Of a stretch of 64,000 bases of DNA, positions 4,552 to 41,374 are shown piece after piece. The notes beneath the pieces are model-generated. The model ran no database searches and was not told the origin of the DNA. It was given only the letters and a program-made list of their open reading frames with translations. The DNA is from Alopecurus myosuroides. Its lineage: Eukaryota; Streptophyta; Magnoliopsida; Poales; Poaceae. The translations under genes were made by a program, and so were the position numbers. How positions within the stretch are numbered: the first letter of the stretch is position 1; the number at the start of each line of letters is the position of its first letter. Location of the stretch: positions 311,536,949-311,600,948 of the forward strand of contig CM054060.1 in the NCBI GenBank assembly GCA_028641055.1, read 5' to 3'.

Positions 4552-4632
4552 TACTTCCCGTTCGGTCACCCATCATCCCACTACTGTAGCACTAGCACGC
4601 TTAACTTCCGAGTTCCATCCCGCCCCGCATCC
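4552..4632 (-). ncRNA. 5S-rRNA-derived segment inside CACTA A
   Basis: The minus strand contains GGAACTCGGAAGTTAAGCG, a TGCTAGTGCTACAGTAGTG stretch and GATGGGTGACC, then CGGGAAGT. These follow the order and spacing of the plant 5S rRNA internal control region (A box, intermediate element, C box). A GGATGCG at 4632-4626 matches the 5S start, but the first third of the 5S gene is shortened. I see no run of four T immediately downstream, so it is a derived fragment rather than a normal 5S gene. Whether Pol III uses it is not known. Confidence 0.75.
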
Positions 4633-4807
4633 AAGTGTTTCGCACGCATGTATGTGATAGTACTATCATATCAATCCTATTAACATGTTGGTCGATGCCA
4701 CATTACTTTATTGTTTGAATTTCAAATAAATCTTTTAATAAACAAAAGTAATAATTTTGAATAAATAAATAAACATTAACTTTTTAATTTGTATTATTTC
4801 TAAAAAA

Positions 4808-5027
4808 TATTCAGGAAAATAAAACTAATTCATTTTAAAATCTAAAAAACAAATAATATATCAAAATATTCAGAAAAATAAAACTAATTCATTTTACAAT
4901 CTTAAAAATACAAATAATATATCAAAATATTCAGAAAAATAAAACTAATTCATTTTTAAATCCTAAAAATACAAATTGTATATCAAAATATTCAGAAAAA
5001 TAAAACTAATTCATTTTCCCCTTTCCT
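4808..5027. repeat. AT-rich tandem repeat in CACTA A
   Basis: About 3.5 copies of an AT-rich unit of roughly 60 bp, each containing AAAATAAAACTAATTCATTT. The same array occurs in the related transposon at 40890-41115, so it belongs to the element. Confidence 0.8.
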
Positions 5028-5619
5028 AAATGCAAAATAAAATCTGATAAAATTCATGAACCAAACCATATAAAATTTGCAGATCCAAGTTTGGACTATT
5101 ATTTTGGACACAAGAACTGGTTTGGCAATGACTATCTGTGAGAATGATTTGAACCTAACTTTTAAAATACATAACCAAAATGGACAAACTAAAATGTTCT
5201 GGATAGATATTGAAAAGATCTATCCATAGAACTTAGCCTCACATCAAGGTTAGCAACCAAATGAAAATACCATCCTTTTTAATAAAAGATCAGTATGCTC
5301 TTCTATGATTTTTAGAATGAGTTCAAAAATGAATTTTGAAGTAAATCCAACTGGATGAGTTTGGTATTGACTAGATCTATGTTTTATGGCTTAGATTAAT
5401 TTTTGGAGCTCTAGATTTATTTTTGGTGAACAGATATATAAACAGTAGTTTTTCTGTTTTGTTTTCTTGATGTGTTTTTGTTTGTTTTGAAATGTGTGTT
5501 TGATCTTATCTTGTTTCCTAGCTTGTATAGAGTGTTAGGACTTGATATTAGGTTGTTTGCTTGCAGAACATCTACCTTAGAAAGTGTGTGCATGATTGGA
5601 AACCAAAATAAAAATGGAA

Positions 5620-6429
5620 CTAGCATTTGTTAATTTCTAGTTTTATAATATATCCATTACATATATGGAACGCAACATAGCGGTACATAGATGCGGTACA
5701 CACAAACAACATGTACTCGAGCTCTGAAGAGTAGATGCGAAACAACTCGAAGGCAACGTATGCATCTATTGCTGCATACTCGAGATTGATCCGGTCAAGT
5801 GGGTTATTCCCCCAATAAAAGTGATTCTTCGAGGGGAAACAAGTCTTCATGGTTTTGTAGTCGGGGTGGATGAAGGCAGTTGCCATCTGAGCCATCCCGG
5901 TCTTGTGCCTGTACAGCTCATCAAAATGGATCAAGTCCTAAAGATCAATGTAGTGATCTTTAGGTATCTCAATACCCAACGTGCGCATCAACTTCTGCCG
6001 GTCATTTGTGATGTCAACGCTACAGAAGTCGTACCCTTTGTTGATAAGAAAATCAACAAGTTCTGGAGATTGCTTTGAACTACTGCAACAAAAAATCAAC
6101 ACGTGTTAGATATTGTTGCAAACATGTATTCTTCCAATGCAAGAACAAATCGAAATTGCAACAAGAGATTGTACGTGTGCGTACCTTGCCCATTGGAAGA
6201 CCAAAACGGTCTCCTTGTAGGCAATATGGATGACGGCCACATCCCGTTGATTCGCCGTGTACTCTAGATCAAGCCCGAAGAACTTGTGGTGTTCATCGGC
6301 GGCTTCATAGAGATTGCTCAAACGGCGAAGAGCTTCGGGGAGCCTCTCGCATATATTGGTATAGGCGACATGGAGATTCTTGCCGCATGGTGTGGGCACA
6401 TGGAGAACGTTCCAAACGGGAGAATCCAT
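5620..6429 (-). pseudogene. Captured DEDDy-type 3'-5' exonuclease-like gene, copy in CACTA A
   Basis: Two exons are visible: exon 1 from the ATG at 6429 to 6185 (donor AAG|GTACGC) and exon 2 from 6082 (acceptor TTGTTGCAG). Exon 1 carries FFGLDLEYT, matching the DxE Exo I motif. Exon 2 carries a VDIT-D-QKL region consistent with Exo II and LEYAAIDAYVAFELF, matching the YxxxD Exo III motif. The fold is that of WRN/RNase D-like exonucleases, which remove nucleotides from 3' ends using two metal ions. An in-frame TAG at 5938-5940 interrupts exon 2. Compared with the sister copy, the frame runs past the end to 5620. It was probably a plant gene or fragment captured by the transposon. Its activity is unproven. 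Confidence 0.75.
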
Positions 6430-6798
6430 GGGTGGTGGGTGGAGGAAGAAGAGAGGATCAAGAAGAGAAGAGAGGAAGAAGAACAGAGAGCGCACTGTAG
6501 CAATGGCCTTCTGCCTCTCGCTCGCGAAATAAAACCGCGCGGGTGGCGAGCAGTTTCGACCTTTAGTCGCGGGTGGCCAGGCCACCCGGGACTAAAGGCC
6601 GGGATACCAGCAGTTCGGACCTTTAGTCGCGGTTGGCCAGGCCAACCGGAATTAATGCCCTCCGCGCGCTTCCCCAACTGCCATTCATGACGTTCAGTCG
6701 CGGGTCGCCTCGCGAACCGCGACTAAAACTCATTTAGTCACGGTTCGTATAGTTTGGGGACTAAAGGGGGCGTATAGAAGGCCTTTTTTCTACCAGTG

Positions 6799-7524
6799 AA
6801 TATACCCATATCTACTCAAATCATCTGTGAAAGTGACAAAATAACGATATCCACCGCGCGCCGATACACTCATTGGTCCACACACATCAGTATGTATGAT
6901 TTCCAGTAAGTCTGTCGCCCGTTCCATGGTTCCAGAAAACGGGGTTCTAGTCATCTTGCCCATAAGGCATGGTTCACATGTTTCAAATGATTCACAATCA
7001 AGTGATTCTAAGAGTCCATCTGAATGGATCTTCTTGATGCGTTTAACACCAATATGACCTAAGCGGCAATGCCACATGTAAGTAGCAATATCATCACTTA
7101 ATTTAATTCTTTTGGCATTCACATTATGAATATGTGTATAAACACTATCAAGATTCAAAAGAAATAAACCATTCTTCTTAGGTGCATGACCATAAAAGAT
7201 ATTATTCATATAAGTCGAACAACCATTGTTCTCAGACTTAAAGGAATAACCATTCTGCATTAAGCAAGATCCAGAAACGATATTCATGCTTAATGCAGGC
7301 ACCAAATAACAATTATTGAGGTTTATAACTAATCCCGATTGTAGACGTAGAGGCAGCGTCCCGACGGCGATCACATCAACTCTTGATCCATTGCCGACGC
7401 GCATCGTCACCTCATCCTTTGCTAGTGGTCGCTTATTCTGCAGCTCCTGTTTCGAGTTACATATGTGAGCAACCAAACAAGTATCAAATACCCAGGTGCT
7501 ACTGCGAGTACTAGTAAGGTACAC
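6799..7524 (-). pseudogene. pol: Copia protease and integrase N-terminal part
   Basis: The minus-strand frame starts with a retropepsin-like region in which the expected catalytic DTG reads DTC (WVFDTC), likely inactivating the protease. It continues through the pre-integrase H-H-C-C zinc-binding region (a WHCRLGH stretch and CEPCLMGK) into the integrase core with the first catalytic Asp (IIHTDVCGP) and the second (FTDDLSRYGY). The frame then meets the CACTA insertion at 6798, and the coding sequence resumes in frame at 4191. Confidence 0.87.
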
Positions 7525-7599
7525 ATCAATAACAAGTATATTATATATATACCTTTGTTCACTTTGCCGGCCTTCTTATATGCCAGATATTTGGGGCAA

Positions 7600-8201
7600 T
7601 TATGCTCCCGGTTGCCAGCGCCTAAGCATTGAGAGAAGCTCAGGAAGAGACTTCTTCATGCCTTGCATATTATAGTTCATCACAAAGTTCTTGTAACTAG
7701 GTGGTAGAGATTCAAGAACACGATGTATCCCTAGCTCATTGGGGATCAACATTCCCAAAGCTATGAGTTTATCAGCGTACTCAGACATTCTGAGTATGTG
7801 CTCACTAACGTAGATGTCCTCTTCCATTATGCAGCTAAAGAACTTTTCCGAAGCATCATAAATCTCCATTGCAGCATGGGTATCGAAAATCAATTTAAAT
7901 TCTCCAATTGTGGCATAAGCAGTGCTTTTCTCGAAACATTTTCGCAGCTCTGGCTCTAATCCATAGAGGATGCCGCAATGAACTATACTGTGGTCTTCTT
8001 GTTGAGTCAGATAAAAAAATTATCTTCATCATAAGCATCATCAGCGGGCTGGTCACCTAGAGGTGCATCAAGCACATAGAGCTTCTTGCAAGCGGTGAGG
8101 AGAATCCTCAGGTTAAGTGTGCAGTTGGTAAAGTTTCTCCCATTGTTCGCTAATTTCTCTCTCTCCATGAACATATTGAAATTGAAGGTAGGTGGTGCCA
8201 T
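7600..8201 (-). pseudogene. gag: Copia gag remnant
   Basis: The start MAPPTFNFN at 8201 and the later stretch ending in a YNMQGMKKSLPELL motif (down to 7600) match BARE-type gag, the capsid protein that packages element RNA. The middle (about 8006-7894) is out of frame with stops. After the second part the sequence jumps to a fragment of the CCHC zinc-knuckle region (a CPKYLA stretch near 7590), so the RNA-binding part has been deleted or shortened. Confidence 0.8.
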
Positions 8202-9343
8202 GATCTACAACATATTTTCAAAGACTATTTAGACTATGTTTATGATAAATTAAGTTCAAGTTAATTCTAAAATTATCCCATGAACTCCCACTCAAAAACA
8301 ACATCCCTCTTAGTCGTCTTTAGTGATTACACGAACCAAATTCACTACACCGAAACTGATCATCACGTGAGACGGTGTAGTTGCAAAGGCGAACATCAAC
8401 ATGTTCATCATATCATCTATATGACTCATGCTTTACCTTTCGGTTACGTGTTCCGAGGCCATGTCTGTACATGCTAGGCTCGCCAAGTAGAACCGTAGTA
8501 TTGCGTGTGTTTCAAGGCCATGTTTGTACATGCTAGGCTTAAAAACACCCGTTGTATGCGAACGTTGAGTCTATCACACCCGATCATCACGTGGTGTCTC
8601 GAAACGACGAACTTTCTTAACGGTGCATACTTAAGGAAGAACACATTATTATCTTGATATTAAGTGAGAGGGATCATCTTATAATGCTACCGTCGCGATC
8701 TAAGAAAAGTAAGATGCATAAAAGGATAAACATCACATGCATGGATAATGTGATATGATATGGTCCTTCTTGCACTTGATCTCCATCTTGTGCATCATGG
8801 TATAATCTCCATCATTCCACCGGCGTGGCACCTCCATCTTGATTGTCCATTACAACATATCACATGGATATGATATACAACACGCAGGCCAAAAAATAAG
8901 ACAACCATATGGCTCCAGCCGGTATGTCAATAATTTACAAAAGACATCATCTCATACATAACGTTTGTAACATTGACCATATCACATCACATGCCCTGCA
9001 AAAACAAGTTAGACGCCCCTAATTTATTTTTGCATATTTTACGTGGCTTTGGGCTTACGAGGACAGAACCGTTCATACCTACGTACAAGAACCACAACGT
9101 TGATAAAACATATTTTAACAACCCTTTGTAGATTAGATCTTAACTATAGTAGGAGAAACGGACACCCCTCAGTCACATGTGAGACAATTCTCGCGTACAT
9201 AGTACACGTAAACTTAGTCCGGGGAAACTTCATCCTACTATGCCACTAAGATCATAAAATACTCAAAGAGGCAAAAACATGATCATCAATGCCCACATAC
9301 TCCTATGTGTTCTACCCGTACAATTCATCTACGCATAGATCCG
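8202..9343 (-). other. Copia 5' leader, non-coding
   Basis: This stretch between the primer-binding site and gag is the untranslated leader of the Copia element. It has no convincing frame. Two tandem-like copies of a segment ending CATGCTAGGCT are seen around 8455-8540. Confidence 0.6.
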
Positions 9344-9355
9344 GCTCTGATACCA
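9344..9355 (-). other. Primer-binding site, initiator Met tRNA
   Basis: The minus strand reads TGGTATCAGAGC one base inside the 5' LTR. It is complementary to the 3' end of plant initiator tRNA-Met, the usual primer for Copia reverse transcription. This fixes the element's orientation as minus. Confidence 0.92.
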
Positions 9356-9356
9356 C

Positions 9357-11008
9357 TGAAGGGGAACGTGGCATAGAAAACAAAAAATTTCCTACGCGCG
9401 ATAAACCCGAATGGCCAAGATCTAATCTATGAGATGAAAGGCAACGGGGAGAAAGAGAGTCTTGAGATAACATACCCTCGAAGACTCAAAGTGGTACGAG
9501 ATAAAATCTCGTGGTTGGCTTAGTCGTACTCACGCCAATCCCGAGCGAGAAGAAGTGCACCGCATTCTGGCGGTGCCTCCGTAATCGGTCACACGTTCAG
9601 CTCGATGAAGAGTTTCGTTCCCTCGATCCAGCGGGTAGCGGAAGTAGATGATCCCCGCGGAACTCCAACAGCACGACGGCGTGGTGGTGGTGAAGAATCC
9701 CATGGTCAGAGCTTCGCCAAGCCGGAGACCATGAAATGGAGCAGCGGGTGGAGGGAAAAGGGAGTGGGCAAGTGTGTGTAGAAGAGAGAGCCCTTACCCT
9801 CCTTTTATAGGGGAGGGGGAGGCAGCCCAAGCGGGGGTGTGGCCAGCCATGGGTGCCCCCACCCCTTCCTCTCTTCATGTGAGAGGAAGCCCCACTCAGA
9901 CCCACTCAAAATTCCTTAATTTACCACTTAGAAAATCCAAAGGTTTTTCTTTAATAAATAAATAAAACATTTTTATTTCTGTATTTATATTTGTTAATTC
10001 CATTAACAAACATTTGCATGCAGCACCTCGAACCATTTGTTAATTCTATTAACAACCGTTCGACGAAAAACCCCTTGAACTATTTCAATTTTCCCCGAAA
10101 CAATTTCGGAGCTGCCCAAAATATTCTTCGGTGTTCCGTATACTCTCTAACACTTCATCGAACCTTAAGTGTGTCACCCTACGGTTCGTGAATAATATAG
10201 ACATGATCGAGACTCCTCTCCGATCAATAATCAACAGCGGGATCTGGAGATCCGTGATGACTCCCATATATTCAACGATGACTCTCGTGATCGTGTGAAC
10301 CTTTCAACGTCGTAACGATTTCCCTTTGTCTCGCGATATTTTACTTTCCCGAGATCCAATCATCGGTATCCACCATACCTTGTTTGATCTCGTTATCCGA
10401 CGAGTACTCTTTTCTCGTTCCCATCATATAACATCCTTGTGATCATATCACTTGCTTGCAAGCGGTGTCGATGTGATATCACCGAGAGGGCCCTGAGTAT
10501 ATCTCTCCGTCATATTGGATGGAAAAATCCCATTCTTGATCCATGAGCTTCAACTAACACTTTCCGAATACCTAAAGCCATCTTTATAGTCACCCTGTTA
10601 TGGTGTGATGTTTGATGTCATCAAAGTATTCTTTCGGTATTAGTGATTACCATGATCTCATGGTCTAAGGAACAATGTTACTCCGAATGTACGACATAAC
10701 AACAAAACTAAATGACTTGATCGTATTGTTATACTTAGTTAGGGTATAAGTTCATCATGTCATTCTCCTAATGACATGATCCCGTTATTAACAATATCCA
10801 ATGTCTATGATCAGGAAACCTTGATCATCTGTTAATCAACGAGCTAGTTAAAAGAGAGGCTTCACTAGGAACGTCGGTTTGTTTATTAATCACACATGTA
10901 TCAGCGTTTCCGGTTAATAAAATTCTAGCATGAGAAATAAACATCTATTATAAACAAGGAATAACATAATAAACACTTTATTATTGCCTCTCAGGCATAT
11001 TCCCTTCA
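9357..11008 (-). repeat. Copia 5' LTR
   Basis: This 1652-bp LTR pairs with 128-1761. The minus-strand TATA box CTATAAAAGG lies at 9801-9811 and should drive the element transcript. A short insertion near 9825-9845 and scattered substitutions separate it from the other LTR. It is flanked on the right by the gggtt duplication. Confidence 0.92.
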
Positions 11009-11157
11009 GGGTTTTTCGAGAAGGAGACATGGTTCTTAGGCTCGTGCAGCGCACAGCCGGGATGCATAAGCTATCCCCGCCGTGGGAAGGGCCCTTTATT
11101 GTGAGCAAGGCTCTGCACAATGATGCCTACTATCTAGTTGACGCACAGGCACCCTAG

Positions 11158-11873
11158 AAGAACAGACCAGATAGAGCAGGAGAGGAATCAAAGCATCCTT
11201 GGAATGTAGCTCTACTCCGCCGTTTTCATTCATGAGCAAACATTGTATGTATCTCCTCAACCGAGTTAACATTCTAGTCGGCACTCCGAATTCGAACTCG
11301 GGGACTGTCCTTGTCCAAGTTTGCTCTGTGTCTTTTTTACTCTGCTTTACTTTGTCTACTCGGTTGGTTTACTTAGAATTTCATATGCATATCTAGTAGT
11401 GTGTTTAAACCCAAGGGTCAACTCTTCGACTCTGCTGCTATCCGCAACCCGGCTTCATGGCAAGCAAGAGAACAAGCCAAAGGTCAATAAACACACGAAA
11501 ATTGTTAAGGAAAAGAGGAGTGTAGCAACCGAGTAGGGTGTTCTTTACTTTCCTGTATCTCTTTTCGGCCAAGTGGTGGGCAGCATTAACATGCAATTTT
11601 CTAAGGGGCTAAGTATCTGAAACTTGGTCTAGGAAATCTTGTGACTCGACTACCAAAAAAGCCATAAGTGGCAGGTAAGAGCAAAGACGAATAGACTAAG
11701 TGAATGAAAAATGCAACTCGGGGACTTGCATAATAACGCAATCCGGCATTAAGCCCGAATTGCTAAATGTTGATCAAATAAAACTGAGTACCAAGGAACT
11801 TAAACGTATGTGTTACATTTGCACCCGGCATCCCGGGGATCTGATAAGTGTTTGAGATAAAAACTGCAGGAAT
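11158..11873 (+). other. Gypsy non-coding spacer after pol
   Basis: This DNA lies between the integrase stop and the 3' end of the antisense gene. It holds several short frames, none resembling a known protein, and repeated ACTCGG/CCGAGT hexamers like those in the rest of this element. Confidence 0.55.
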
Positions 11874-21359: not shown

Positions 21360-21927
21360 GAATGCATCGTGTATTTAACTTGTTAACTGTCGGGTTGCCA
21401 AAGCAACAGAAACTTGAACCCCATTGGTAAGTTGGTTCACGAGGGAGTGTAGTATCCGAGAGGTTAAGGTTATGGTTATATTTATCTTAATTACTTTCGT
21501 GTAGTTGCGGAAGCTTGCAAGGGGTTTAATCACAAATACATGTTAGTCATATGAAGGGAAGTGTGTTAGCATAGATTCCCCCACACAACACGTATCAAAA
21601 TATTAAAGATTAACCAACTGCACGAAACAAAAGCATTAGACAAAATCCCCATGTCTCCTCGGGAACGTTTGGTAATCATAAGTAACACAACTGGATTGTC
21701 CTTTGCACCGAAAAGGATCGGGCCACTTGCTGCAATTATTATTGGGCTCGTTTATCTGCTCGTACTTTTTTATCCGTTGCTTTTGAAACTACTAAAAATC
21801 TGTCTTCTAAGTGTTACAGTGAATCCTTGTTCAAAACTACTTGCCAGCACATTGTGCTCCTCGTTGGGTTCGAAACTCTTATTTATCGAAAGTACTACGA
21901 TACATCCCCTATACTTGTGGGTCATCA
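21360..21927 (+). repeat. Gypsy LTR remnant
   Basis: The right end reads CCCCTATACTTGTGGGTCATC, a tip common to several Triticeae Gypsy LTRs. The rest is degraded and non-coding. It is not part of the LTR to its left and is cut off by the tandem array on its right. Confidence 0.5.
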
Positions 21928-21929
21928 GT

Positions 21930-23655
21930 GTGCTTGCACAACTCTTCCAAAGATCCCCTCTGTTTCCTCTGAAGTGGGAGTTGCCACCTATAAGTCCTAA
22001 AACACACTAGAGAGAAGCATACGTCTGTGAACCCACCCACATACCGGAGTGGGATCTTGGACATCTAGGACCTAAAACACACTTGGGAACATGTGATATG
22101 GAACCACATGTCATGTTGTGGCATTCCGATGCTCCGGAGCCCCTCTCCGGTGAAACTCTAGCCTTGCTGGAGAAAAACCCAGACTTATGCATCTACAATC
22201 GGTATCAGCGTCAAGAGGGGGTAGAGAAGTGGAACCAATTGCTTGGTTTTGTTTTGTTATACATAAATAACACCAAACAACAATGGTCTACCACATCTCT
22301 TGAAAAGATTCCCTCTATTTCCTCCGAAGTGAGAGTTCCCACCTATAAGTCCCAAAACGCACTAGAGAGAAGCATACGTCCGTGAAACCACCCACATACC
22401 GGAGTGGGATCTTGGACATATAGTACTTAAAACACACTTGGGAACATTTGATATGGAACCACGTGTCATTTGGTGGCATTCCGATGCTTCGAATCCCCTC
22501 TCCGGTCAAACCCTAGCCCCGCTTGAGAAAAACCAAGACTTATGTGTCTACAGCCGGTAACAGCGTCAAGAAGGGGTAGAAAAGTGGAACCAATTTCTTG
22601 GTTGTGTTTCTTTAGCCCCAAGGAACACCTACAATATTGGTCTACCACAAGTCTTGCAAAGATCCCCTGTATTTCTTCCGGAGTGGGAGTTTCCACCTAT
22701 AAGTCCTGAAACGCACTAGAGAAAAGCATACGTCTGTGAACCCGCCCACATACCGGAGTGGGATCTTGGACATCTAGGACCCAAAACACACTTGGTCACA
22801 TGTGATGTGGAACCACATGTCATTTGGTTGCATTCCGATGCTCTGGAGCCCCACTTCCAGTGAAATCCTAGCCCCACTGGACAAAACCCCAGACTTATGC
22901 ATCTACAGCCGGTAAAGACGTCAAGAGGGGGTAGCAAAGTGGAACCAAATTCTTGGTTGTGTTTGGTTAGCCCCAATGAACACCAAAAACAAATTTATAC
23001 CACAACTCTTGCAAAGAACCTCTCTGTTTCCTCTGAAGTGGGAGTTTCCACCTATAAGTCCTTAAACGCACTAGAGACAAGCATACGTCTGTGAACCCTC
23101 CCACATACCAGAGTTAGATATTGGATACCTAGGACCCAAAACACATTGGGCACATGTGATACGGAACCACCTATCATTTGGTGGCATTTCGACGCTCTGA
23201 AGCCCCTCTCCGTTGAAACCCTCGTCCCGTCGGAGAAAAACCCGGCTTATCGTTCTATCCCCCATACATGAGCCGGATGGGTGTAACAAAGTGGATACGA
23301 TTGCTTGGTTGTGTTTGGTTAGGCCATAGAAACACCCAATACAATGTTCTACCCAAACTATTGACAAAATTCCACCCCCCCCCCGTTCGACAGATCTGAG
23401 AGTTTCGGGCTATAAGTAATCCTGAAACCAGACAGAGAGAAGTCGATGACGGTGAAGCCCTAACACAAATGGTGAGGGAATCTTGGACATATACAATCCA
23501 AATCACACTTGCAAACACATGTCATGGAAAACATTAGCTTTTGGTGGGGGCTCATACACTCCGGAGCCCCTCTCATGCGAAACCCTAGACCGGTTTGATG
23601 AAAGTCCAGCACGTCGAAAAAGGGTAGCGAAGTGAAACTAATTTCATGCTTGTGT
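21930..23655. repeat. Tandem array, period about 354 bp, nearly five copies
   Basis: A unit recurs with its CTCTTxCAAAGAT...CCTCTGTTTCC marker at about 21941, 22297, 22648, 23003 and 23357, so the period is close to 354 bp. Other landmarks repeated in each unit are GAGAAGCATACGTC, CACATACCGGAGTGGGATC and GGAACCAC followed by CATGTCAT. Copies differ at several percent of sites or more, and the last is partial and more divergent. No unit keeps an open frame. The array may be a small satellite or the repetitive interior of a transposon. Confidence 0.85.
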
Positions 23656-28635: not shown

Positions 28636-28638
28636 AAA

Positions 28639-28650
28639 TGGTATCAGAGC
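28639..28650 (+). other. Primer-binding site of the LARD element (Met tRNA)
   Basis: TGGTATCAGAGC starts three bases after the LTR end and is complementary to the 3' end of initiator tRNA-Met. It confirms the plus orientation and the LTR boundary. Confidence 0.9.
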
Positions 28651-30151: not shown

Positions 30152-31373
30152 CACTACTACAAAAGGCCCATAGCCGCATCCCATAGCGCTGGCGCACATG
30201 CAATGGTCTCCGCCAGCGGTATTTACCGCCGGCGCGCAAAATGCAGGTGCGCCAGCGCTAGCTGGTTACCCCCGGCGCGCACGCAACGCCACGCGCCGGC
30301 AGTAAAGCCATGCCACCCCCGCCCCCTCTGGTAAACTTACCCCCGGTGCCCTGCTTCCCCGCACGCCGGCGGTAACTGCAGTTACCCCCGGCGCGTTGCG
30401 TGGCCACTGCGCCAGCGGTAACGCTGCACTTACCCTCGGCGCCCATGCATGCCTACGCGCCGGCGGTAAGTCCAGGATTTTTCCCTCCACAACCCCCCCC
30501 CCCCCCAGTGGACCGCCTTTTTAGTTTTTTAAAGCAGAAACGAAAATGATAAAATGTTCAAAAAATAAATTCCTTTGATATGTGGGTAGGGTGTACTGTC
30601 TAGTTGATATAGAAAATTTGAAATACTCCATTTGACCTTTTATGCAAAATTCAAAAATAAAACGTAAAACGGCCATAACTTTTGCATACGACGTCGAAAA
30701 AACGCGTTCAATATATCAAACGGCCTGTGAGGTTTTTTCAGAATCGGCAAATTCCAAAAGGAAAAAAAGTTATTTGAGACAGACTAAATTTTCCTACATA
30801 ATCAATTTAATTAAATAAATTCAAAATTAAAAAGAAATATAAAAAAATATTTTTTTTTCATAGAAGATAATAAGGATGTCATATTTGGATTCCTCGTATT
30901 CTTCTAATCAATTTAGACATATCATTTGTCGAATTTGGAAATACGGATTTGTAGATATGGTGCAATAGTTAAAAGGATTGATAGTACTATACTAACAAGA
31001 AAGAATGAGGGAGTCATAGTTAGAGTAGTGGGATGGAACTAAGAAGTTAAGCGTGCTCGGGCTAGAGTAGTGGGAGGATGGGTGACCGAGCGGGAAGTTG
31101 ACAAAGGGGACCTAGAATGATAGAGAGAAAAATCAAATAAATTGAATATATGTTTTTCTTTGTTTTCAAAAACAATTTTCGAAAAAAAAAACCGAATGTT
31201 ACCGCCGGCGCGTGGGATGTTGGTGCGCCGGCGGTAAGTTTTTTACCGCCGGCGCGTTGAGCCAGCGCGCCGGCGGTAACTTCTTACCACCGGCGTGAGC
31301 ATCGCCGGCGCGCGCCCATGCGCCAGCGGTAAGCCCATTTGGAGCGCCGGCGGTAAGCCTTTTCCTAGTAGTG
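30152..31373. mobile_element. CACTA-type transposon B (small, non-autonomous)
   Basis: This 1222-bp element has tips CACTACTACAAAAGG and, on the other strand, CACTACTAGGAAAAGG. An exact 3-bp target duplication aag flanks it (30149-30151 and 31374-31376). Both subterminal zones are packed with direct and inverted CGCCGGCGGTAA-type repeats. The AT-rich middle holds a 5S-rRNA-derived segment at 31031-31098. No protein is encoded. Confidence 0.92.
31031..31098 (+). ncRNA. 5S-rRNA-derived segment inside CACTA B
   Basis: The plus strand reads GAAGTTAAGCGTGCTCGGGC, then TAGAGTAGTG, then GGATGGGTGACC and CGGGAAGT. These match the plant 5S A box, intermediate element and C box in order, and match better than the copies in CACTA A and C at the GGGC step. 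A TTTTT run about 55 bp downstream (near 31153) could act as a Pol III terminator. The 5' third of 5S is missing, so it is not a normal rRNA gene. Confidence 0.78.
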
Positions 31374-31677: not shown

Positions 31678-32546
31678 CCATATGGGCGTTGTCTTGATCA
31701 ACTAAGTTGAATGAACTCACCAGGCTTACAAGCAGATGTAGCATAATTGTAGGTAGAACGGGTAAGCCAAACGGTGGTGGAATTTCTTCTGAAAGATATC
31801 GTCTCAATCTTCTCCCTTCCTTAATGCACTCAGAGTGTATAGGATGTTTGGGATGATCTCAGTCTGAAGGTGAAAGTGCACAAACTCTGCAGAGTCAACA
31901 AACTAAGATCTTAGTCGTATCCCTGGTTATGGACAACTATGAGCAGCTCGACAAGGCTTGACGGAAGAATCTCGTCACCAATTTCAATAAGTACAATTTG
32001 ACCAAGTGAACAATATTGTGGTGCTTGGATCTTAATCCAATGTTGCCACCCCTTTGAAAAGAAAAATTTGTTTTACAAAAGAGATAGAACAAAACTGGCT
32101 TTATGCAAACTTAGCCAAAGACTCCACTCAGCAAAATAAGCATGTAGTATAATTTTTGCAATTTATATCCACCATATTGTTACTTGCCAATACATTAAAT
32201 TGTATTGACTCCCTTGTGGCTGCATATTCCATATTGCAGATGTTTCTGAAGACGAGTGAGGATTTCGTTTAGTATCTCGAGACTATCGCCAACATGTTTT
32301 GCATGTGGCACATTAAGAAGATGGGCTCAATGTTGTACTATGTTTTCCGCTGTATTTCTTGTTTTCTGCTAGTCTTGTAAGACTATGCAAGTTGTAATCA
32401 TATTTTGTAAAGACTGGATCATGCGATGTAATAAAATTTGATGCATTGCATGATATTTCATTTTGTACTGTGGCGCTAGCAACTGATCCAGAGACTAGCA
32501 CACTAACAGAGAAGTTCTTACATTATTTAAATGTGGGAACGCTACA
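31678..32546 (+). repeat. LARD 3' LTR, only its last 0.87 kb
   Basis: This aligns with 27768-28635 with scattered differences. The other roughly 3.9 kb of the 3' LTR is missing. Since the outer target duplication is intact, the loss was an internal deletion after insertion. Confidence 0.8.
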
Positions 32547-32750
32547 GTTGGCCAGTGCGATGGAACGGCCACGTGGCCAGTATTTTTGTCGTGTGTAGTC
32601 GTTTCCGTGTGTTTCCGTGCTTCTTTGTCATGTACCGATCGTTACCGTGTGTTTTATTGTCTACTACGTCGTATGTTGGGCTCTGTCGTGTGCCCGATAT
32701 CCTGCACACGGCAACGCGCCTCGCTCACGGCAAGCGTGTATCCCGTAGTG
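32547..32750. mobile_element. CACTA-type transposon D, right end
   Basis: Read on the minus strand, the tip is CACTACGGGATACACGC, followed by GCCGTGAGCGAGG and other GCCGTGTGC-type subterminal repeats. It is the right terminus of the CACTA element that hosts the LARD insertion. The left tip is not in the region examined, so a target duplication cannot be confirmed. Confidence 0.65.
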
Positions 32751-33549
32751 CGAGATGAGCAAAGATTACAACAGATGAGTACGTCCTAAGAATCCTAGGT
32801 TCAGAATAGACCGGGATTTCGAAGTTTAGAGTGCGAACAACCGGTATTTCGAGTTCAAGGTTTGATTTTTCTAACATATACCAGTTCAAGGTTTAGAATG
32901 AAACTTTTCCTTTGAAATTATACTAGATCGACTCCGGAACCGAACCATAGTTTAAAAAACTGGAACGGTCAGTGAACCGGTTAGGCGGCTGGTTCACTGG
33001 TTCAATGGTCCGACCACCGGCTCATCCGGTTTGTTTGCGACAAAAACCACTATTTTTAATTAAAATTTAAGCATTTTTTGTGTGTGGGGGCGAACTAAGG
33101 CAGAAGGTCCGAAATTCATTGCTTGCTAATCGCGATTACGTGAAATGTGGATCGTTAAGGGGAGGGTCTCGGCCCCGCTTGTCCCTCCAAGCTTGTCTCC
33201 ATCCCCGGCAGAGTTTCCGGTCATAGTCGGAAAGCCAGGCACTGTGTACCGGTCCCTAGGACCGCGGGAACTAAGGCAGCAGCGGCATAAAACTCCTAGG
33301 CAACGATGGTGTTGGCGAGGCCAAGGAAGCGTCGGGAAGAGGAACTTGCCTCCCTAGCCGACAAGAGTGGCCCGGCTACGTCGTTGGCGAGGAACACTCC
33401 TCCGCAAGCGTGAGACACTCCTTGGCCTCCTCCAAGTTACGCCCATTGGTCGCTGCCATGCTGGTGCCCTAAAGTGTGTGGTGAAATATTGCGAAATATA
33501 ATATCGGATGTGTAGCATGGCAACAAGTGCAAAATATAATATATTTCTT
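32751..33549. other. Unassigned DNA
   Basis: No supported gene. A segment around 32935-33035 is rich in AACCGGTT/GGTTCACTGG dyads, as in some small grass repeats. 33145-33357 has an open frame of 70 codons with no recognised similarity. Confidence 0.35.
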
Positions 33550-34340
33550 TCAAACAAACAATAATGCTACGTCTACGGATTATTTAATCTTACACTGACG
33601 TGTCCCCTTTATTTTGACTACTCCAAATAAAAACTGACACTCTCGTGATTGCCCATTGTGCCTCCACATTGATTCATAACAAAAATGCCAGTAGATGTAG
33701 CATTGTTCGTTCGCAAATATTTTAACAATCTGATCTACCAACTCCAATAACGTATGGTTGATAAGGAAATTTATTATGTGCTTTCATTATAGAAAATTGG
33801 TTGTGTTTGTATGTATCGTCATTGTAGAGTGGCATGCACCGAACCAGTTAAACCTGAAAACTTCATGCCAATGCCTATACCATTTTTTTTATTTATTCCG
33901 CCAGCTGCGATACCATGTAGACCCGAACGAGTTTACCAAAAGTTCATAGCGATAGAACGATGGGAAAGGGGGCAAATACACTTATACTTCAACAACCGCG
34001 AATGTGAAATAATGATATAGCAGTGTATTGTTACACAAAAGGAAATAATTAATACTCATACCATAGTACTATGTGAGAGGTCGCACCACTACATATATTT
34101 TGCAAGCATCAATAGCTAGACATCATTGGGCTCCCTTGCACCGCGTTCGTTTTCCAATACTCGAAGGGACATGCAAATACGAAAATGAAAGAGGGGAAAG
34201 GGATAGTAGGTTGTAGAAAGGAGGAACCGTTAAACAACACTTCGAGACTAGTAGATCAACATAAAATAGAGAAAGAGATATTGAACTATGGTGATCATCT
34301 TCTACTATGGGAATAGGAGACGTTGGAAAATAAATATATG
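33550..34340 (+). repeat. Dispersed low-copy repeat, copy 1
   Basis: By eye this shares an ordered set of landmarks with 42360-42854 and 53540-53990: ACGTATGGTTG, a TTATGTGCTTT/TTACGCACTTT step, an AGAAAATTG-TTGTGTTT stretch, GCAAGCATCAA.TAG, CAATACTCGA, and finally GGGAATAGGAGAC-TTGG. Copy 1 appears to hold an extra 200 bp around 33830-34020. No frame is conserved across copies. Its nature is unknown: it could be an old transposon or a local duplication. Confidence 0.5.
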
Positions 34341-34499
34341 TTTGTGCACAAACCTAGGTAATAGTTTGTGCAGTGGAACTAAGACTCAACCAAGCAGACA
34401 ACATCTGGTACATTTAAGAGACCATGAAGTTTAGTTAGGGAGTCAATATGGCTAGATAGGCAAATTTCATAGGAAACTATATAATAAGGAGTGGAAACA

Positions 34500-35960
34500 T
34501 GTAGAGGCCCGCTTCCCGTAAAAATTGGGTTGTTGGGATGGAAAGTTGCTATCTTATGGGGCTCTCTTTGTTTTAACTAATTATGTATTAACAAGCCTCC
34601 CAATGTTCCTGTTGTCATTCTTTGAGATTCCCAAAGGGGTTAGAAAAAGATTGGACTTTATATCACTTTTTTTTTTGCAAAGTGATAATAAGAAAAGAAA
34701 AGGTATTGCATGTGCATTGAGGTTCTTAATATAAAAAAATAAGTATCTTCTGAGTAAACAAGTTGTTGCATCAAGAGGGGTTTAGCAAGAACTCCTCTAC
34801 AACAAATACTTAGATGATAAAACTTTATCTCAAGTACAGGTGAAACCAATAATTCCCCCTCCTGGAAAGTTATGATGGGGGTTAAACAAGAATTTTTCTC
34901 GTGTGGATCCTTTCGACTTGGTAATGGTCAACAAATTCTGTTTTGGGAGGATAGATGGTTAGGTGATGAGATGTTATCACAAACGTGTCCCTCTCTTTAT
35001 AGCATTTCTTATCACAAGCATGTCATGGTGGTTGATGTATTTTCAAATAATCCACTTAATATTCAGTTTAGAAGGTCCATCATAGGGGATAGAAAACACA
35101 TTGGCTACATTTGGTGGAGAGACTAATGTTGATCTCGTTGTACCAGGAGCCAGATTCTTTTCATTGGGGTTTGACAACCAATGGGATGTTTTCGGTTAAA
35201 TTATTGTATGCTAATTTTCTTAATGGTAACACGAGAACTTTGCGAAAAAATATGTGTAGAGTATTAAAAACCATTGAAAATTAAAATCTTCTTGTGGTTT
35301 CTTCATCGTAAAGTGATTTTAACTAAGGATAATTTAATAAAGAGGCGTTAGAATGGATGTGAAGAATGTGATTTTTGCGCGGAGGATGAGCCAGTTAAAC
35401 ATCTATTTATATCTTACCCATTTGTACATAATAATTGGAGACTAATTCACTTTACGTTTATTATCTCTCCGCTCACTTCCTAAACAATATGTCTAGTAGT
35501 TGGTTAAATCGAATTGATAGAAATACTAAAGCACGTATACGTGTAAACGTCTCATCTTTTTTTTTGGGGGGGCAATCTAAAATTGTCGTCATGATGTGAT
35601 TCTTAACAAGAAGGAAGATGCTCACTTTATAAAGTTTATTAACAAAGGGGCCTGCTGGATTCACATCTGGTCTTTTCTCTCTCCCATGGAGTAGAGAAGA
35701 CCTCTGGATACTGGATGTGCTCGACTGATGGCGGTTGTTCAGAATATTTACAGTATGGCTGGCTCCATGCTAAGAGATTAGATGCACAAGGTTGTGACTT
35801 CTGAGTGGCTAATCTTTGTGGACACCTTGAGTGCTCCGTCGGTTGTAAGATGATGATACTTTTTTTGCTACATTTTAAATAAATAAAAATTGTGTGCGTC
35901 TCTTTGATGCAGAGGTTGGGGCTAAACTCCCATTGGAAAAAAGAAAGATAAGCAAAGTTC
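34500..35960 (+). pseudogene. LINE (non-LTR retrotransposon) 3' fragment 1
   Basis: The plus strand encodes the end of a plant L1-type RT protein, with a KLLSYGALFVL...LTSLPMF region, LSFFEIPKGV, FWEDRWLGDE and NPLNIQFRR, followed by a zinc-finger-like CDFCAEDEPVKHLFIS stretch of the zf-RVT domain. Several frameshifts and stops interrupt it. The RT active site lies upstream and is absent, as expected of a 5'-truncated LINE. I see no clear poly(A) tail at the end. Confidence 0.75.
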
Positions 35961-37140
35961 AAGGATTGGGTAGATTTCTAGAAGATTTAGAAAATTATCC
36001 GACCATCCTTTTAAAGGGAAATTCTATTGTGTCATAAATATATCTTATTTCCAATTGAACGTCAATTAGTATCTTTTCAGTAGTCTAGGCCTTTCTTAAT
36101 ACAAACAAGACAAAGCTTTGGTAACACATAGATAAATGTGCTACAAGAAAAATATGCTAACACATAAATTGTCTTGCAGGTCTATACCATAAAACGTAGT
36201 TGATAAGATCCAAAAAGGTGTTACATGAATATTGGTTTAGTAACGTATTCATTAGCATGCCTCATAATGTGTTGCCAAAAGTTATTTACGGGGAAAAGGA
36301 GAGAACAAGAATTTAATCATTTTTTAAACAACGCCAATGCATGACAGATCAACATAGAAAAATGACATGATAAGGGAACTTCATTTACGTCAATTAGTCC
36401 CTTTTTTAGTAATTTACACTTTTCTCCGACATATGATCGTAATCTATTGTATTGCTCGGTCACTAGATGTGTCATACAAACATAGAAAAACACATAGATG
36501 AACCACCTAAGAACCTAGCACCTTCACTGCGAACATAAGTACATAAGTATCTAAACATGACTACTACCAGTGTTAAAATAGTTCCAAACGGTAAATCTAT
36601 CACATGGAGACACATTCAGCTATCTATCATTCAACAATTGGTAGTTTCGAAGTGTGCATAGTTCTTTAAATAATAGCTTCCAAGTTGTGCGGACAATTAT
36701 ACTAGCCGGCGTGTACAGATCCTAAGTATTATCTGAAGCTCTTAGTTTTGTCTATTCCGGATAATGTTATAGTACAACATGAGTCAAAGTTACGGTTTTC
36801 ATTGGGGATATCTCCTACTCAAATTGATAATTTGGTTAATGGTTGAAAGGAGTTGGAAGAGCCATGTCATTTAGTTTTGTTGAGTAATTATTTGGGTAAT
36901 GATGCTTGTAGCGGCTCACATAGCACAGTGAAGCGTAGAGCTTCAAATCTATGTGATGATCACGTTGGTGATGAAGAAGAGGGTCTGAGGGATCATTTGG
37001 ATTCTCTTGTATACAGGTGTGAAAGTCACATGATCCCGCAAAAAGAAAACAAGTGCTAATCACAAACTTAGAAGAAGTGCTAGAATTAAACTTTGAAAAA
37101 GTAAATCAAAATGAGAGGATATTTTTGGAACACCAACGGT
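35961..37140. other. Unassigned AT-rich DNA
   Basis: About 1.2 kb without a recognisable gene, terminal repeat or tandem structure. Short frames (for example 36853-37059) show no known motif. Confidence 0.4.
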
Positions 37141-37590
37141 ATGGGAGTGAATAATAAAGTGGTTATTATCTTATTCTATGTTTATGATAAACGTTTATTT
37201 ATCATCCTATAATTGTATTAGCCGGAAACATTAATACGTGTGTGTCTAATAAACAAACAGCAGTTCCTATTAACGCATCTCATTTAACTAGCTCGTTGAT
37301 TTACTGATGATCGAGATTTCCTGATCATGAACATTGGATGTTGTTACTAACGGAATCACGTCATTAGAAGAATGATGAACACATAACCAAAGAAAGTATA
37401 GCAATGTGATGAAGTCATTAAGTTTACATTGTTATATACATACGAAGTAACCCTAATCCTTATACTATGAGATCATCTCAATCACTAACACCGGACAAGT
37501 GATTTGATGACATCAAATGTCACACCGTAGCAGAGTGATTATAAAGGTGGTTTTGGCTCTTAAAGTAATAGTTGAGTCTCATGGATCATG
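37141..37590 (+). repeat. BARE/Angela-like Copia LTR fragment
   Basis: The sequence aligns in reverse complement with the Copia LTR at about 1300-1745: AATAATAAAGTG, TGTTTATGATA, TTAACTAGCTCGTTGATT, CCTGATCATGAACATTGGATG and TTTGATGACATCAAATGTCA. The tip is lost and the rest of the element is absent. It directly abuts LINE fragment 2. Confidence 0.75.
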
Positions 37591-38645
37591 GGACCACATT
37601 TTGGGAGGATCCATGGTTAGGCAACACACCTCTTTCCGGTCAATATCCTTCACTTTGTAATATTATGCGTCAGAAAAATGTTCTTGTCTCACATGTACTA
37701 GATAATTCACATTAAAATATTGAATTTTGACGATCTTTAGTGCAGGATAAATGGGATGCATGGCTTCATCTTGTAGAGAGACTAATGGGAGTATATTTAT
37801 CAGATGAACCAGATTCTTATTTCTGGAAATTAACACTGTCGGGTGTATTCTCGGTTAAATCTTTTTATGGGGACCTAATGAACGGTAGAACTAGGTTTCT
37901 CTGTAAGTATCTATGGAAATTGAAAGTACTAATAAAAATTAAGATGTGTGGTTTCTTTATAGGAAAGAATTATTTACTAAGGATAATATCGCCTAAAGGC
38001 GGCAGACAGGTTGTAAAAAGTGTGTGTTCTTTGGTACAGAAGAGTCCGTAGGGCATCTTTTTGTATCGTTTGAACTTGCCCGTAAAATTCGGAGAATTGT
38101 CCATTTTACTTTTAGCATTTCTCCCCTATTTAGTATTGCTAACATGTTAAATTCATGGCTCAATGGTATAGATAAGTCTACAAAAGCTAGTATACGTATA
38201 GGAGTATGTGCTTTTCTTTGGTCTATTTGGAACCGCGGGAATGATGTGGTTTTTAATAATGCGATACATGGTAATTTTTTGCAGCTTGTTCACCATGCTT
38301 AATACTGGATCCTCGACTGGTCATTTCTCCTTCCAGAGGATTAGGAGAACGTTTGGACACTGGATCCACTCGGCTGATTGCACACTAGGCAATTGCAATA
38401 TGTATAGTTGTCCTATGTCTGGGTTGTTTGGGTGGATTATTTAGGTGGCCACTTTGGCATTTTTGTGAACTGTAATGCTTGTCATAATTTAGAGTTGGAT
38501 ACTGACACTCTTTTATTTAATGGACAATGTTGTCTGCACGTTCTGACACTCTTTTATTTTATGGACAAAGTTGTGTGCATCGCTCCCATGCAGAGGCTAG
38601 GATTACCCGTTCGAAAAAATTGTTCGGCAACTAAAATTTGTTATT
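37591..38645 (+). pseudogene. LINE 3' fragment 2
   Basis: This is another plant LINE C-terminal region, with FWEDPWLGNTPLSGQYPSL, then an LTLSGVFSVKSFYGDLMNG region, then FGTEESVGHLFVS in the zf-RVT domain and a SIWNRGNDVVFN stretch. It overlaps in content with fragment 1, so it is a separate copy. Frameshifts near 37980 and 38030 break it. The truncated 5' end meets an LTR scrap. Confidence 0.75.
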
Positions 38646-39256
38646 CCATCTGAATTGTCATTTTAGTATTCAACTAGTATTATAAGAACATGAACACATA
38701 TTTAACATGGTTAAGTTTGTGCATGGGCATATGTTTGTAACGTGTCATATCTACATGTAATTAAAAGCACAAATGCTTGACGAGAAAAAAAAATACATAC
38801 ATTTTTTCACAAACTAATGTTGACTAAAGATGTCACTCACATATAACATCTCTTATTTAGTATCACACCATCATACACACCGGTAAAAAAAAGGCCTTCC
38901 ATACGCCCCCTTCAGTCCCCAAAATGTCTGAAACGTGACTAAAGGGGTCTTTAGTCGCGGTTCGGGACGCGACCCGCGACTGAAGGTCTTGAGTGGCGGT
39001 TGGGGTAGCGCGCGAAGGGATTTAGTCCCGGTTGGCCTGGCCACCCGCGACTAAAGGTCGGAACTGCTCGCCTCCCTGTCTTTAGTCCCGGTTGGCCTGG
39101 CCACCCGCGACTAAAGGTCGAAACTGCTCGCCTCCCGCGCGGTTTTATTTTGCGAGCGAGAGGCAGAAGGTCATTGCTACAGTGCGCGCGCGGGCTCTCT
39201 GTTCTTCTTCCCTCTCTTATCTTCTTGATCATCTCTTCTTCCTCCACCCACCACCC

Positions 39257-39988
39257 ATGGATTCTCCCGTTTGGAATGTTCTCTATGTGCCCACACCATG
39301 CGGCAAGAATCTCCATGTCGCCTATACCAATAGATGCGAGAGGCTCCCCGGTGCTCTTAACCGTTTGAGCAATCTCTATGAAGCCGCCGATGAACACCAC
39401 AAGTTCTTCGGGCTTGATCTAGAGTACACGGCGAATCAACGGGATGTGGCCGTCATCCAGATTTCCTACAAGGAGACCGTTTTGGTCTTCCAATAGGCAA
39501 GGTACGCACACGTACAATCTCTTGTAGGATAGTTGTTGCATTTTCGATTTGTTGTTGCATTGGAAGAATACACGTGTTGCAACAATATCTAACACGTGTT
39601 CCATTTTTGTTGTTGCAGTAGTTCAAAGCAATCTCCAGAACTTGTTGATTTTCTTGTCAACAAAAGTTACGACTTCTGTAGCGTTGACATCACTCAAGAC
39701 CGGCAGAAGTTGATGCGCACGTTGGGTATTGAGATACCTTAAGATCACTATATTGATCTTCAGGACTTGATCCATTTTGATGAGTTGTACGGGCACAATA
39801 CCGGGATGGCTCAGATGGCAACTGCCTTCATCCACCCCGACTACAAAATCATGAAGACTTGTTTCCCCTCGAGGAATCACATGTATTGGGGGAAGAACCC
39901 ACTTGACCGGATCTATCTCGAGTATGCAGCAATAGATGCACACGTTGCCTTCGAGTTGTTCCGCAACTACTCTTTGGGGCTCGAGTAG
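39257..39988 (+). pseudogene. Captured DEDDy-type 3'-5' exonuclease-like gene, copy in CACTA C
   Basis: Exon 1 runs from the ATG at 39257 (MDSPVWNVL) to 39501, with donor AAG|GTACGC. Exon 2 runs from 39619 (acceptor TTGTTGCAG) to the TAG at 39986-39988, giving about 204 residues, the size of a WRN-type exonuclease domain. Exo I (FFGLDLEYT), a putative Exo II (FCSVDITQDRQKL) and Exo III (LEYAAIDAHVAFELF) are all visible. Two stops interrupt it: TAG at 39494-39496, where copy A has tryptophan, and TAA at 39740-39742, where copy A has lysine. Exon lengths and splice sites are the same as in copy A. Confidence 0.78.
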
Positions 39989-40889
39989 ATGTTGTTTGTG
40001 TACCGCATCTATGTACCGCTATGTTGGTTCGATATATGTAATGGATATATTATGTAATGGATATATGTCTTTCTATTAATTCCTATATTATTTCTATATT
40101 AATTCTTAGCTATATTATTTCTATATTATGTAATGGATATATGTACCTCTATGTTATGCAATGGCTCAAATAAAATCACGGGTTAAACATAGCACAAAAT
40201 TTACTAAAGCAATCACACAAAGATCTAGCTCACACACAATTCCAAAATAATAAAACTAGAAAGTAACAAATGCTAGTTCTATTTTTATTTGGGTTTCCAA
40301 TCATGCACACACTTTCTAAGGTAGATGTTCTGCAATCAAACAACCTAATATCAAGTCCTAACACTCTATACAAGCTAGGAAACAAGATAAGATCAAACAC
40401 ACATTTCAAAACAAACAAAAACACATCAAGAAAACAAAACAGAAAAACTACTGTTTCTATATATGTTCACCAAAAATAAATCTAGAGCTCCAAAAATTAA
40501 TCTAAGCCAGGAAAACATAGATTTAGTCAATACCAAACTCATCCAGTTGGATTTACTTCAAAATTCATTTTTGAACTCATTCTAAAAATCATAGAAGAGC
40601 CTACTGGTATTTTATTAAAAAGGATGGTATTTTCATTTGGCTGCTGACCTTGATGTGAGGCTAAGTGCTATGGACAGATCTTTTCAATATCTATCCAGAA
40701 CATTTTAGTTTGTCCATTTTGGTTATGTATTTTAAAAGTTAGGTTCAAATCATTCTCACAGATAGTTATTGCCAAAACAGTTCTTGTGTCCAAAATAATA
40801 GTCCAAACTTGGATCTGCAAATTTTATATGGTTTAGATTTCATATGGTTTGGTTCATGAATTTTATCAGATTTTATTTTGCATTTAGGA

Positions 40890-41115
40890 AAGGGGAAAAT
40901 GAATTAGTTTTATTTTTCTGAATTTTTTGATATATTATTTGTATTTTTATGATTTTAAAATGAATTAGTTTTATTTTTTGGAATATTTTGATATATTATT
41001 TGTATTTTTAAGATTTTAAAATGAATTAGTTTTATTTTTCTAAATATTTTGATATATTATTTGTATTTTTAATATTTGAAAATGAATTAGTTTTATTTTT
41101 CTGGATATTTTTTAG
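40890..41115. repeat. AT-rich tandem repeat in CACTA C
   Basis: Nearly four copies of the roughly 60-bp AT-rich unit with AAATGAATTAGTTTTATTTT, the reverse complement of the array at 4808-5027. Confidence 0.8.
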
Positions 41116-41294
41116 AAATAATACAAATTAAAAAGGTAATGTTTATTTATATATTCAAAATTATTAATTGCATCATTACTTTTGTTTATTAAAAGATTTA
41201 TTTGAAATTCAGACAATAAAGAAATATGGCATCGACCAACATGTTAATAGGATTGATATGATAGTAGTATCACATACATGCGTGCGAAACACTT

Positions 41295-41374
41295 GGATGC
41301 GGGACGGGATGGAACTCGGAAGTTAAGCGTGCTAGTGCTAGACTAGTGGAGGATGGGTGACCCAGCGGGAAGTT
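41295..41374 (+). ncRNA. 5S-rRNA-derived segment inside CACTA C
   Basis: The plus strand has GGATGCGGG, then GGAACTCGGAAGTTAAGCG, a GCTAGACTAGTGG stretch, and AGGATGGGTGACC with GCGGGAAGT. This is the 5S A box to C box order. It lies downstream of, and on the same strand as, the exonuclease-like gene, the same arrangement as in CACTA A. No T-run terminator follows closely. Confidence 0.76.

Follow-up and report, generated by a model that had tools for sequence, protein, structure and literature searches.

Several CACTA transposon families in the genome of Alopecurus myosuroides share a core that resembles the internal control region of 5S rRNA. In this one genome the core has been inherited together with alignable flanks across CACTA families, and it is under a constraint that is specific to its boxes: individual copies decay after insertion, but the lineages that propagate retain the A and C boxes. 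We favour, as a reading whose probability we judge to be about evenly balanced, that the core is a putative TFIIIA/Pol III promoter that was passed down within a group of DNA transposon families with its boxes kept.

5S-like cores in three CACTA elements

The window, i.e., the whole stretch of DNA that was analysed, comprises 64,000 nucleotides of A. myosuroides (GCA_028641055.1, CM054060.1, positions 311,536,949-311,600,948). An earlier note had reported 5S-derived segments inside three CACTA elements, A, B and C, and these were confirmed: in each element 63 bp resemble positions 41-103 of 5S rRNA, which form the internal control region, and in local alignments with wheat 5S rRNA (a query of which the first 67 nt occur exactly in the host genome) only those positions matched, with the A and C boxes in 5S order. 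Element A (4192..6798, minus strand, the orientation being set by the 5S core, which reads towards the terminus at 4192) has ends CACTGGTAGAAAA and the target site duplication (TSD) AAT/AAT, and its core (4553..4615, minus strand) lies 361 bp from that terminus. Element B (30152..31373, plus strand, 1222 bp) has ends CACTACTA and the TSD AAG/AAG, with its core (31036..31098, plus strand) 275 bp from the right terminus. Element C (38878..41739, plus strand) has ends CACCGGTA and CTACCAGTG and flanks, ACA/TGT, that do not match as a TSD; its core (41312..41373, plus strand) is about 365 bp from the right terminus. The A-box 15-mer, GAAGTTAAGCGTGCT, is exact in all three, at 4594-4608 (minus), 31043-31057 (plus) and 41319-41333 (plus), and the C boxes are at 4564-4575 (minus, with one mismatch), 31076-31087 (plus) and 41351-41362 (plus), respectively.

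The segments do not represent three independent cases. A and C, both of the terminal type CACTG, are inverted copies with 93.7% identity (2,595 aligned sites) and belong to one family, AC, so that the window holds two families; the family of B differs from AC, and in direct comparison B has only ~74 bp in common with A and C. Both window copies of AC are damaged, A being altered between the boxes and C one base short there, a state that we counted against the promoter reading, and the strict motif of box A, 18 nt and box C is present in B but not in A or C. A search of the window with Rfam gave 27 matches at E up to 1, none of which was to 5S, as expected where half a gene is present. Three reading frames of A and C matched no Pfam family; one reading frame of another copy, L049, had a Pfam match to an exonuclease.

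The carriers are assignable to the CACTA (En/Spm) superfamily based on the CACTA/CACTG inverted repeats and 3-bp TSDs of A and B and on subterminal repeats, which are TTTAGTCCCGG in A and C, CGCCGGCGG in B and TACGCCGACGG in family D. Ends matching at 13/13 positions and a TSD were found for 7/17 AC loci, the other 10 being five 3-kb cuts and five 5-kb cuts in which no matching ends were found. Families D, E and F were examined at their right ends only, and the distance from A box to right terminus was 366-583 bp in 7/8 D loci and in the single E and F loci (the remaining D locus, L058, had no end within 900 bp). Different families have different CACTA/CACTG ends and the same core orientation, with the core finishing 275-365 bp from the terminus in A, B and C.

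Distribution and inheritance of the core

The exact A-box 15-mer occurs 5,430 times in the 3.57 Gb host genome and the reversed pattern 15 times, which indicates that its abundance is not due to chance; genuine 5S gene matches were found in 462 places. The 100 A-box and 93 C-box places sampled all lie within the initial 28.4 Mb of a single chromosome in this one genome. Ninety-nine of the 100 consecutive A-box places were in related CACTA families (AC 63, D 16, E 9, B 7 and F/F1 4) and one was in a 5S-like copy, L005, which was excluded from family tests. In one of the classifications, the class labels of the more divergent copies denote the nearest reference only. The spacing of box A, 18 nt and box C was found in 66/99 copies under a strict definition and in 78/99 with bases 1-3 of box C relaxed; the distance between the boxes was constant in most copies and altered in a B subfamily. 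There were 0 matches in viral contigs.

The earlier note had named family copies without the segment as evidence against its interpretation, and none was found among the 39 B and 20 AC copies picked by flank, these being the best-scoring copies after 40 of 2,358 and 40 of 1,205 first-look candidates, respectively, were scored (for AC, 20 of 39 other AC places were read). Both boxes were recognisable in 35/39 of these B copies and one box in the other 4, and the segment was present in 20/20 AC copies, with its middle deleted in one.

Since the flanks of AC, D, E, F and B can be aligned between families, the core was inherited, in agreement with the note's alternative of a shared ancestor. We propose that a common ancestor of several CACTA families of grasses would have gained the promoter half of 5S (~41-103) at a site close to one end, directly internal to the subterminal repeats and oriented outward, and that AC, B, D, E and F, and probably other families, would have inherited it while ends, subterminal repeats and flanks diverged. 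The core of B is AC-like but its upstream flank is nearer to D and E, so some exchange between families probably happened. That discrepancy, like the resemblance in extent to the core unit of Cassandra, would also suit repeated separate captures from Cassandra or a 5S SINE, an explanation to which we give the least probability of those considered, and which is disfavoured for most families by the alignable flanks, by the absence of the primer binding site (PBS) TGGTATCAGAGC within 2 mismatches on the core strand of A, B and C, and by the finding that the flanks of 100/100 places were most similar either to those of a CACTA family or to those of the 5S-like copy, albeit with no Cassandra among the references.

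Box constraint on propagating lineages

Slower decay of the boxes had been predicted, and between two copies it was not found: A and C differ at 8/74 core sites, more than the 163/2595 overall. Counts of shared variants were mixed, with AC boxes low (1 in 26 box sites versus 12 in 74 downstream) and B boxes not low (0.46 per site in the intermediate element, C box and GGGAAGT together, 0.35 upstream and 0.88 downstream).

Trees were derived from the flanks only and changes were counted on internal versus tip branches. For the A-box-chosen sample (all 36 non-AC copies plus 15, 15 or 30 of the 63 AC copies in three subsamples), the internal:tip counts for the C box and GGGAAGT were 5:43, 5:40 and 3:53, versus 337:310, 328:300 and 323:307 for the flanks (Fisher 5.6e-9, 3.3e-8 and 8.6e-13), and 0 of 20,000 column draws were as low in each subsample. 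The spacers and loop within the core were flank-like (34:29, 36:25 and 34:28). Tip rates per column for the C box and GGGAAGT (2.0-3.1) were not below those of the flanks (1.2-2.2), which argues that these positions are not mutational cold spots. In the C-box-chosen sample, 15 or 25 AC copies were drawn, with L141 and L173 left out and L146 barred since they lack the A-box region or have other sequence in its place; if included, they would be expected to add A-box losses on tips. There, the GTTAAGCGTGCT part of the A box gave 3:15 and 3:20 versus 401:298 and 410:348 for flanks (p 0.001 and 8e-5), and the whole 15-mer a weaker contrast (9:19, p 0.011; 7:24, p 7e-4), its bases 1-3 (GAA) not being kept (6:4 and 4:4). 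In the flank-chosen B copies the A box, C box and GGGAAGT together gave 3:40 versus 198:430 (p 2.5e-4); the A box alone was not significant in this sample (2:10, p 0.36), and it survived exactly in 28/40 B copies, other 15-mers ranging from 5 to 36 with a mean of 22.7.

The note's other condition against its interpretation, boxes decaying at the rate of the flanks, holds after insertion but is false along propagating lineages. The trees also disfavour a neutral relic, i.e., a hitch-hiking 5S fragment that decays like its surroundings. The A versus C comparison, the B shared variants and a multicopy subfamily without the intermediate element are as a relic would have them. A relic would not, however, leave the boxes depleted of internal changes at ordinary tip rates, as they are in three samples selected by different criteria, and we regard it as improbable.

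A and C boxes kept on the trees are what a type 1 Pol III promoter calls for. The intermediate element, for which slower change had also been predicted, was rejected as a kept box: in the C-box-chosen sample its counts (14:9 and 13:9) were like the flanks, and in the A-box-chosen sample it had 0.62 internal changes per column, below flanks, with the bin set at 5S 70-77. The classical element is at 5S 67-72. Family D has GAGCAAT at this position, and in a subfamily of B, with at least 6 copies, a 9-bp deletion spans it and brings the boxes closer together. A terminator was likewise rejected. TTTT was present within 140 nt in 24/99 copies versus 29.5 expected, so that it was not depleted overall, and it follows the core after 145 nt in A and 54 nt in B of the window; in 14/17 AC copies the first TTTT is at least 323 nt past the core, near the terminal repeat. 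An upstream element at -90..-50 seemed conserved between family majorities, but this block was not slower on the tree (one tree: 14 of 44 AC copies, 23 non-AC and 7 added B copies).

Lack of constraint on terminator and upstream positions is as expected if the boxes are a protein-binding site without useful transcription, either a TFIIIA/TFIIIC chromatin boundary or a site adopted by a CACTA transposase cofactor. Also in keeping with such a site are the placement of the core just inside the subterminal repeats, the region in which CACTA DNA-binding proteins act, and the retention of GGGAAGT, which extends past the classical C box. However, the positions that are kept coincide with the A and C boxes of 5S, usually with the 5S spacing, and the same boxes recur in families with different ends and presumably different transposases; we consider this explanation possible but unlikely. 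GGGAAGT could alternatively point to an RNA-level mimic of 5S, an element transcript binding L5 or TFIIIA through its 5S-like part, since it and the C box lie on opposite strands of helix IV of 5S, and the loop between them varies freely. Against this, only half of 5S rRNA is present, Rfam reported no 5S match, and the bases past GGGAAGT (56-90) are not kept (about 2.0 internal changes per column), which makes a mimic very improbable.

The promoter reading and known 5S-derived elements

Under the preferred promoter reading, lineages that continued to transpose would have kept GTTAAGCGTGCT, the C box GATGGGTGACC and GGGAAGT, with decay setting in once a copy has inserted. The boxes would be retained as binding sites of TFIIIA, which in turn brings in TFIIIC, TFIIIB and Pol III; the resulting complex or a short transcript would act on the region of the terminal repeats, e.g., by holding it accessible to transposase. 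Transcripts would then be predicted to start ~47 nt ahead of the A box GAAGTTAAGC. The box constraint on propagating lineages fits the note's suggestion that a 5S Pol III promoter may be, or may once have been, in use in these transposons; its interpretation stood as regards a 5S region shared across different ends and a common ancestor, and fell as regards three cases and slower pairwise decay. Judging from the sequences, it is somewhat short of evenly probable that a class II clade domesticated the 5S internal promoter and maintains, under purifying selection, a working TFIIIA/Pol III site beside its terminal repeats, handed down through five or more families whose ends differ, with a copy number probably in the thousands. 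If so, we know of no earlier case of a DNA transposon with a selected Pol III promoter.

The elements that we know to carry 5S promoters (Cassandra, Ajax and SINE3) are all retroelements, which must be transcribed to move. Gene-less cut-and-paste elements need no promoter of their own, and lasting selection on the boxes of a DNA transposon moved in trans therefore implies some other benefit, which could lie in opening the chromatin, in forming a boundary or in a terminal transcript. This raises the testable question of what role Pol III factors have for DNA transposons. For the host, the several thousand sites that resemble 5S boxes but lie outside any recognisable 5S gene matter for TFIIIA titration, 5S probes and annotation, and bear on the proposed role of En/Spm in moving 5S loci.

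The note knew of no CACTA equivalent of such elements, but it has already been stated that CACTA elements sometimes carry 5S-like sequence (PMC5688495, citing Wicker 2003), a work on Triticeae CACTA families; the constraint, the cross-family inheritance and the counts come from the present analysis. Clone Aesp34 of Ae. speltoides, with an En/Spm fragment (47 nt) and a 5S rDNA-like part (201 nt), is presented as a composite of fragments and not as part of an element (PMC6178165). SINE3 has a 5S-derived 5' head from the transcript start, whereas similarity here begins at 5S position 41. Ajax TRIMs are described as containing only the promoter part of 5S (PMC10886601), as do the elements here; Ajax and SINE3, however, are retroelements that need transcription to move, and a non-autonomous CACTA element does not. 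Cassandra is reported to have a 5S core of about 70 bp with kept boxes and variable stretches between (PMC10853983) and the motif of box A, 18 nt and box C (PMC7215508), both of which are shared by the CACTA cores. Cassandra, however, is a class I element with LTRs, which contain the core, and the PBS, whereas the carriers described here are class II elements with inverted ends.

The 5S-like cores of CACTA elements A, B and C

The claim of the earlier note that three CACTA elements of the window carry 5S-derived segments stands in that all three hold a core matching wheat 5S rRNA 41-103, but two of them, A and C, belong to one family (AC) and are inverted relative to each other. CACTA A (4192-6798, core 4553-4615, minus strand) has the target site duplication AAT on both sides, CACTA B (30152-31373, core 31036-31098, plus strand) has AAG, and CACTA C (38878-41739, core 41312-41373, plus strand) is without a matching duplication. 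In the alignment, similarity was limited to those 5S positions, which are the internal control region, and the A-box 15-mer was exact in all three cores (3/3). Each core points to the closer end of its element, at a distance of 275-365 bp, and direct comparison of B with A and C gave a common stretch of only ~74 bp.

CACTA A is nested in a copia-type LTR element (128-10232; direct repeats 128-985 and 9357-10232) and interrupts its coding region, copia-like frames being seen by eye to flank the insertion. Both AC elements of the window, and the genome copy L049, also contain apparent 3'-5' exonuclease-like gene fragments oriented as the 5S core, by appearance a captured host gene; one L049 frame matched PF01612 (E 0.0014, under the curated cut-off), and no Pfam family was identified in the window AC frames examined. 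Other features of the window include a MuDR-type element (45794-53530) with 195-nt inverted ends, a PF03108 frame (47171-48139) and 64-bp tandem repeats (50394-51559), a tandem array with a unit of ~355 bp (21923-23363), and two foldbacks (43583-43708 and 44087-44253) with MIR1120/MIR1862-like scores under the curated cut-off, which look like Stowaway MITEs.

Occurrence of the core among families

In the host genome (3.57 Gb, seven large contigs) the exact A box occurred 5,430 times (15 times in reversed form, as a control) and the exact C box + GGGAAGT pattern 5,555 times (control 0). Since a 67-nt pattern with at most 3 mismatches found 462 genuine 5S genes (among the matches listed, in arrays on two chromosomes), less than 10% of the A boxes can be attributed to recognisable 5S genes. 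Of the first 100 places with an A box (L001-L008 and L048-L139, within the first 28.4 Mb of one chromosome), 63 belonged to AC, 16 to D, 9 to E, 7 to B and 4 to F/F1, and 1 was 5S-like. Family D has a terminus of CCCGTAGTG type and repeats TACGCCGACGG; families E and F have the terminus CTACTAGTG and repeats unlike those of D. Ten divergent relatives with a C box and a varied A box (L140, L144, L156, L157, L164, L165, L166, L169, L171 and L172) are probably additional families, and L156 and L157 have a second A-box-like motif immediately downstream.

Family copies lacking the segment, which the earlier note had named as evidence against its proposal, were not what we found: no empty site was seen among 39 further B copies picked by upstream flank only and 20 flank-chosen AC copies. 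Both boxes were recognisable in 35/39 of the B copies, the losses being an A-box half (L022) and the C box (L024, L028 and L029), and the core was present in 20/20 AC copies, in one with its middle deleted (L179). At least six of the B copies (L019, L035, L037, L038, L044 and L046) have a common 9-bp deletion across the intermediate element; this subfamily, still multicopy, also includes L108 and L109. With the window copy counted, the A box was exact in 28/40 B copies and the 12-nt C box in 27/40, which is unexceptional because other B-family 15-mers survive in 5-36 of 40 (mean 22.7). Among the AC copies, 12/20 had an exact A box and 13/20 an exact C box + GGGAAGT.

Flanks were alignable between E and D (~75% over 480 bp), E and AC (~70% over 245 bp), F and AC (~65% over 550 bp), and B and D (75/89 upstream columns), indicating that the core is part of an inherited stretch. 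The B core is nearer to AC than the B flank is, so there was probably some exchange.

Constraint on the boxes

Whether the boxes evolve more slowly than their flanks had two answers: between elements A and C the core does not, being changed at 8/74 sites versus 163/2,595 overall, but on internal branches the C box and part of the A box do. Copy pairs are a poor test of constraint because non-autonomous copies decay freely after insertion; selection on still-transposing lineages is expected on internal branches. Trees were therefore built from flanks with the core excised, and changes were placed by parsimony, in three subsamples (n = 51, 51 and 66) of the A-box sample. Internal to tip changes for C box + GGGAAGT were 5:43, 5:40 and 3:53, versus 337:310, 328:300 and 323:307 for flanks (Fisher p 5.6e-9, 3.3e-8 and 8.6e-13; the p values of all tree tests treat steps as independent and are too small by an unknown factor). 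Equal-number random draws of flank columns had as few internal changes in 0/20,000 cases per subsample, and internal changes in the C box numbered 4, 4 and 2, versus at least 7 in the lowest contiguous 12-column flank window (198, 183 and 198 windows). With the alignment anchored at both sides, the spacers and loop within the core were flank-like (34:29, 36:25 and 34:28). Low mutability is not the cause of the few internal changes, given that tip rates of C box and GGGAAGT were not lower than those of flanks.

As the first sample had been picked by the A box, this box needed a separate test, based on the 93 places with an exact C box in that 28.4-Mb stretch (59 already known, 34 newly examined). 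L141, L173 and L146, whose A-box region was missing or replaced, were excluded. In this sample GTTAAGCGTGCT of the A box gave 3:15 and 3:20 versus flanks of 401:298 and 410:348 (p 0.001 and 8e-5); flank-like variation of its first three bases made the contrast weaker for the entire 15-mer (9:19, p 0.011; 7:24, p 7e-4). Bases in the region of the intermediate element did not differ from flanks (14:9 and 13:9). In the flank-chosen B copies, A box, C box and GGGAAGT together gave 3:40 versus 198:430 (p 2.5e-4), or versus 114:334 for upstream flanks only (p 0.0046); the A box alone was not significant there (2:10, p 0.36).

Possible function and known counterparts

The retained bases correspond to the A and C boxes, which in most copies have the spacing of 5S genes, and the likeliest reason for their retention, judged from sequence, would be TFIIIA binding and Pol III assembly. 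Given that the intermediate element is not kept, and that neither an upstream element nor the terminators showed constraint in the CACTA copies of the tree and terminator tests, a predicted bound site with no defined transcript is a serious rival to this promoter reading. 5S-like sequence in CACTA elements is already in print (PMC5688495, citing Wicker 2003), and a clone described in PMC6178165 carries En/Spm and 5S fragments together; among the papers listed from a collection that lacks most subscription literature, no title or abstract opening reported selection on, or use of, a 5S promoter in CACTA elements. The Cassandra motif (box A, 18 nt, box C) was met strictly in 66/99 copies and in relaxed form in 78/99. 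As in the CACTA cores, Cassandra keeps the same boxes with variable stretches between them (PMC10853983 and PMC7215508), and Ajax TRIMs likewise have only this promoter part of 5S (PMC10886601).
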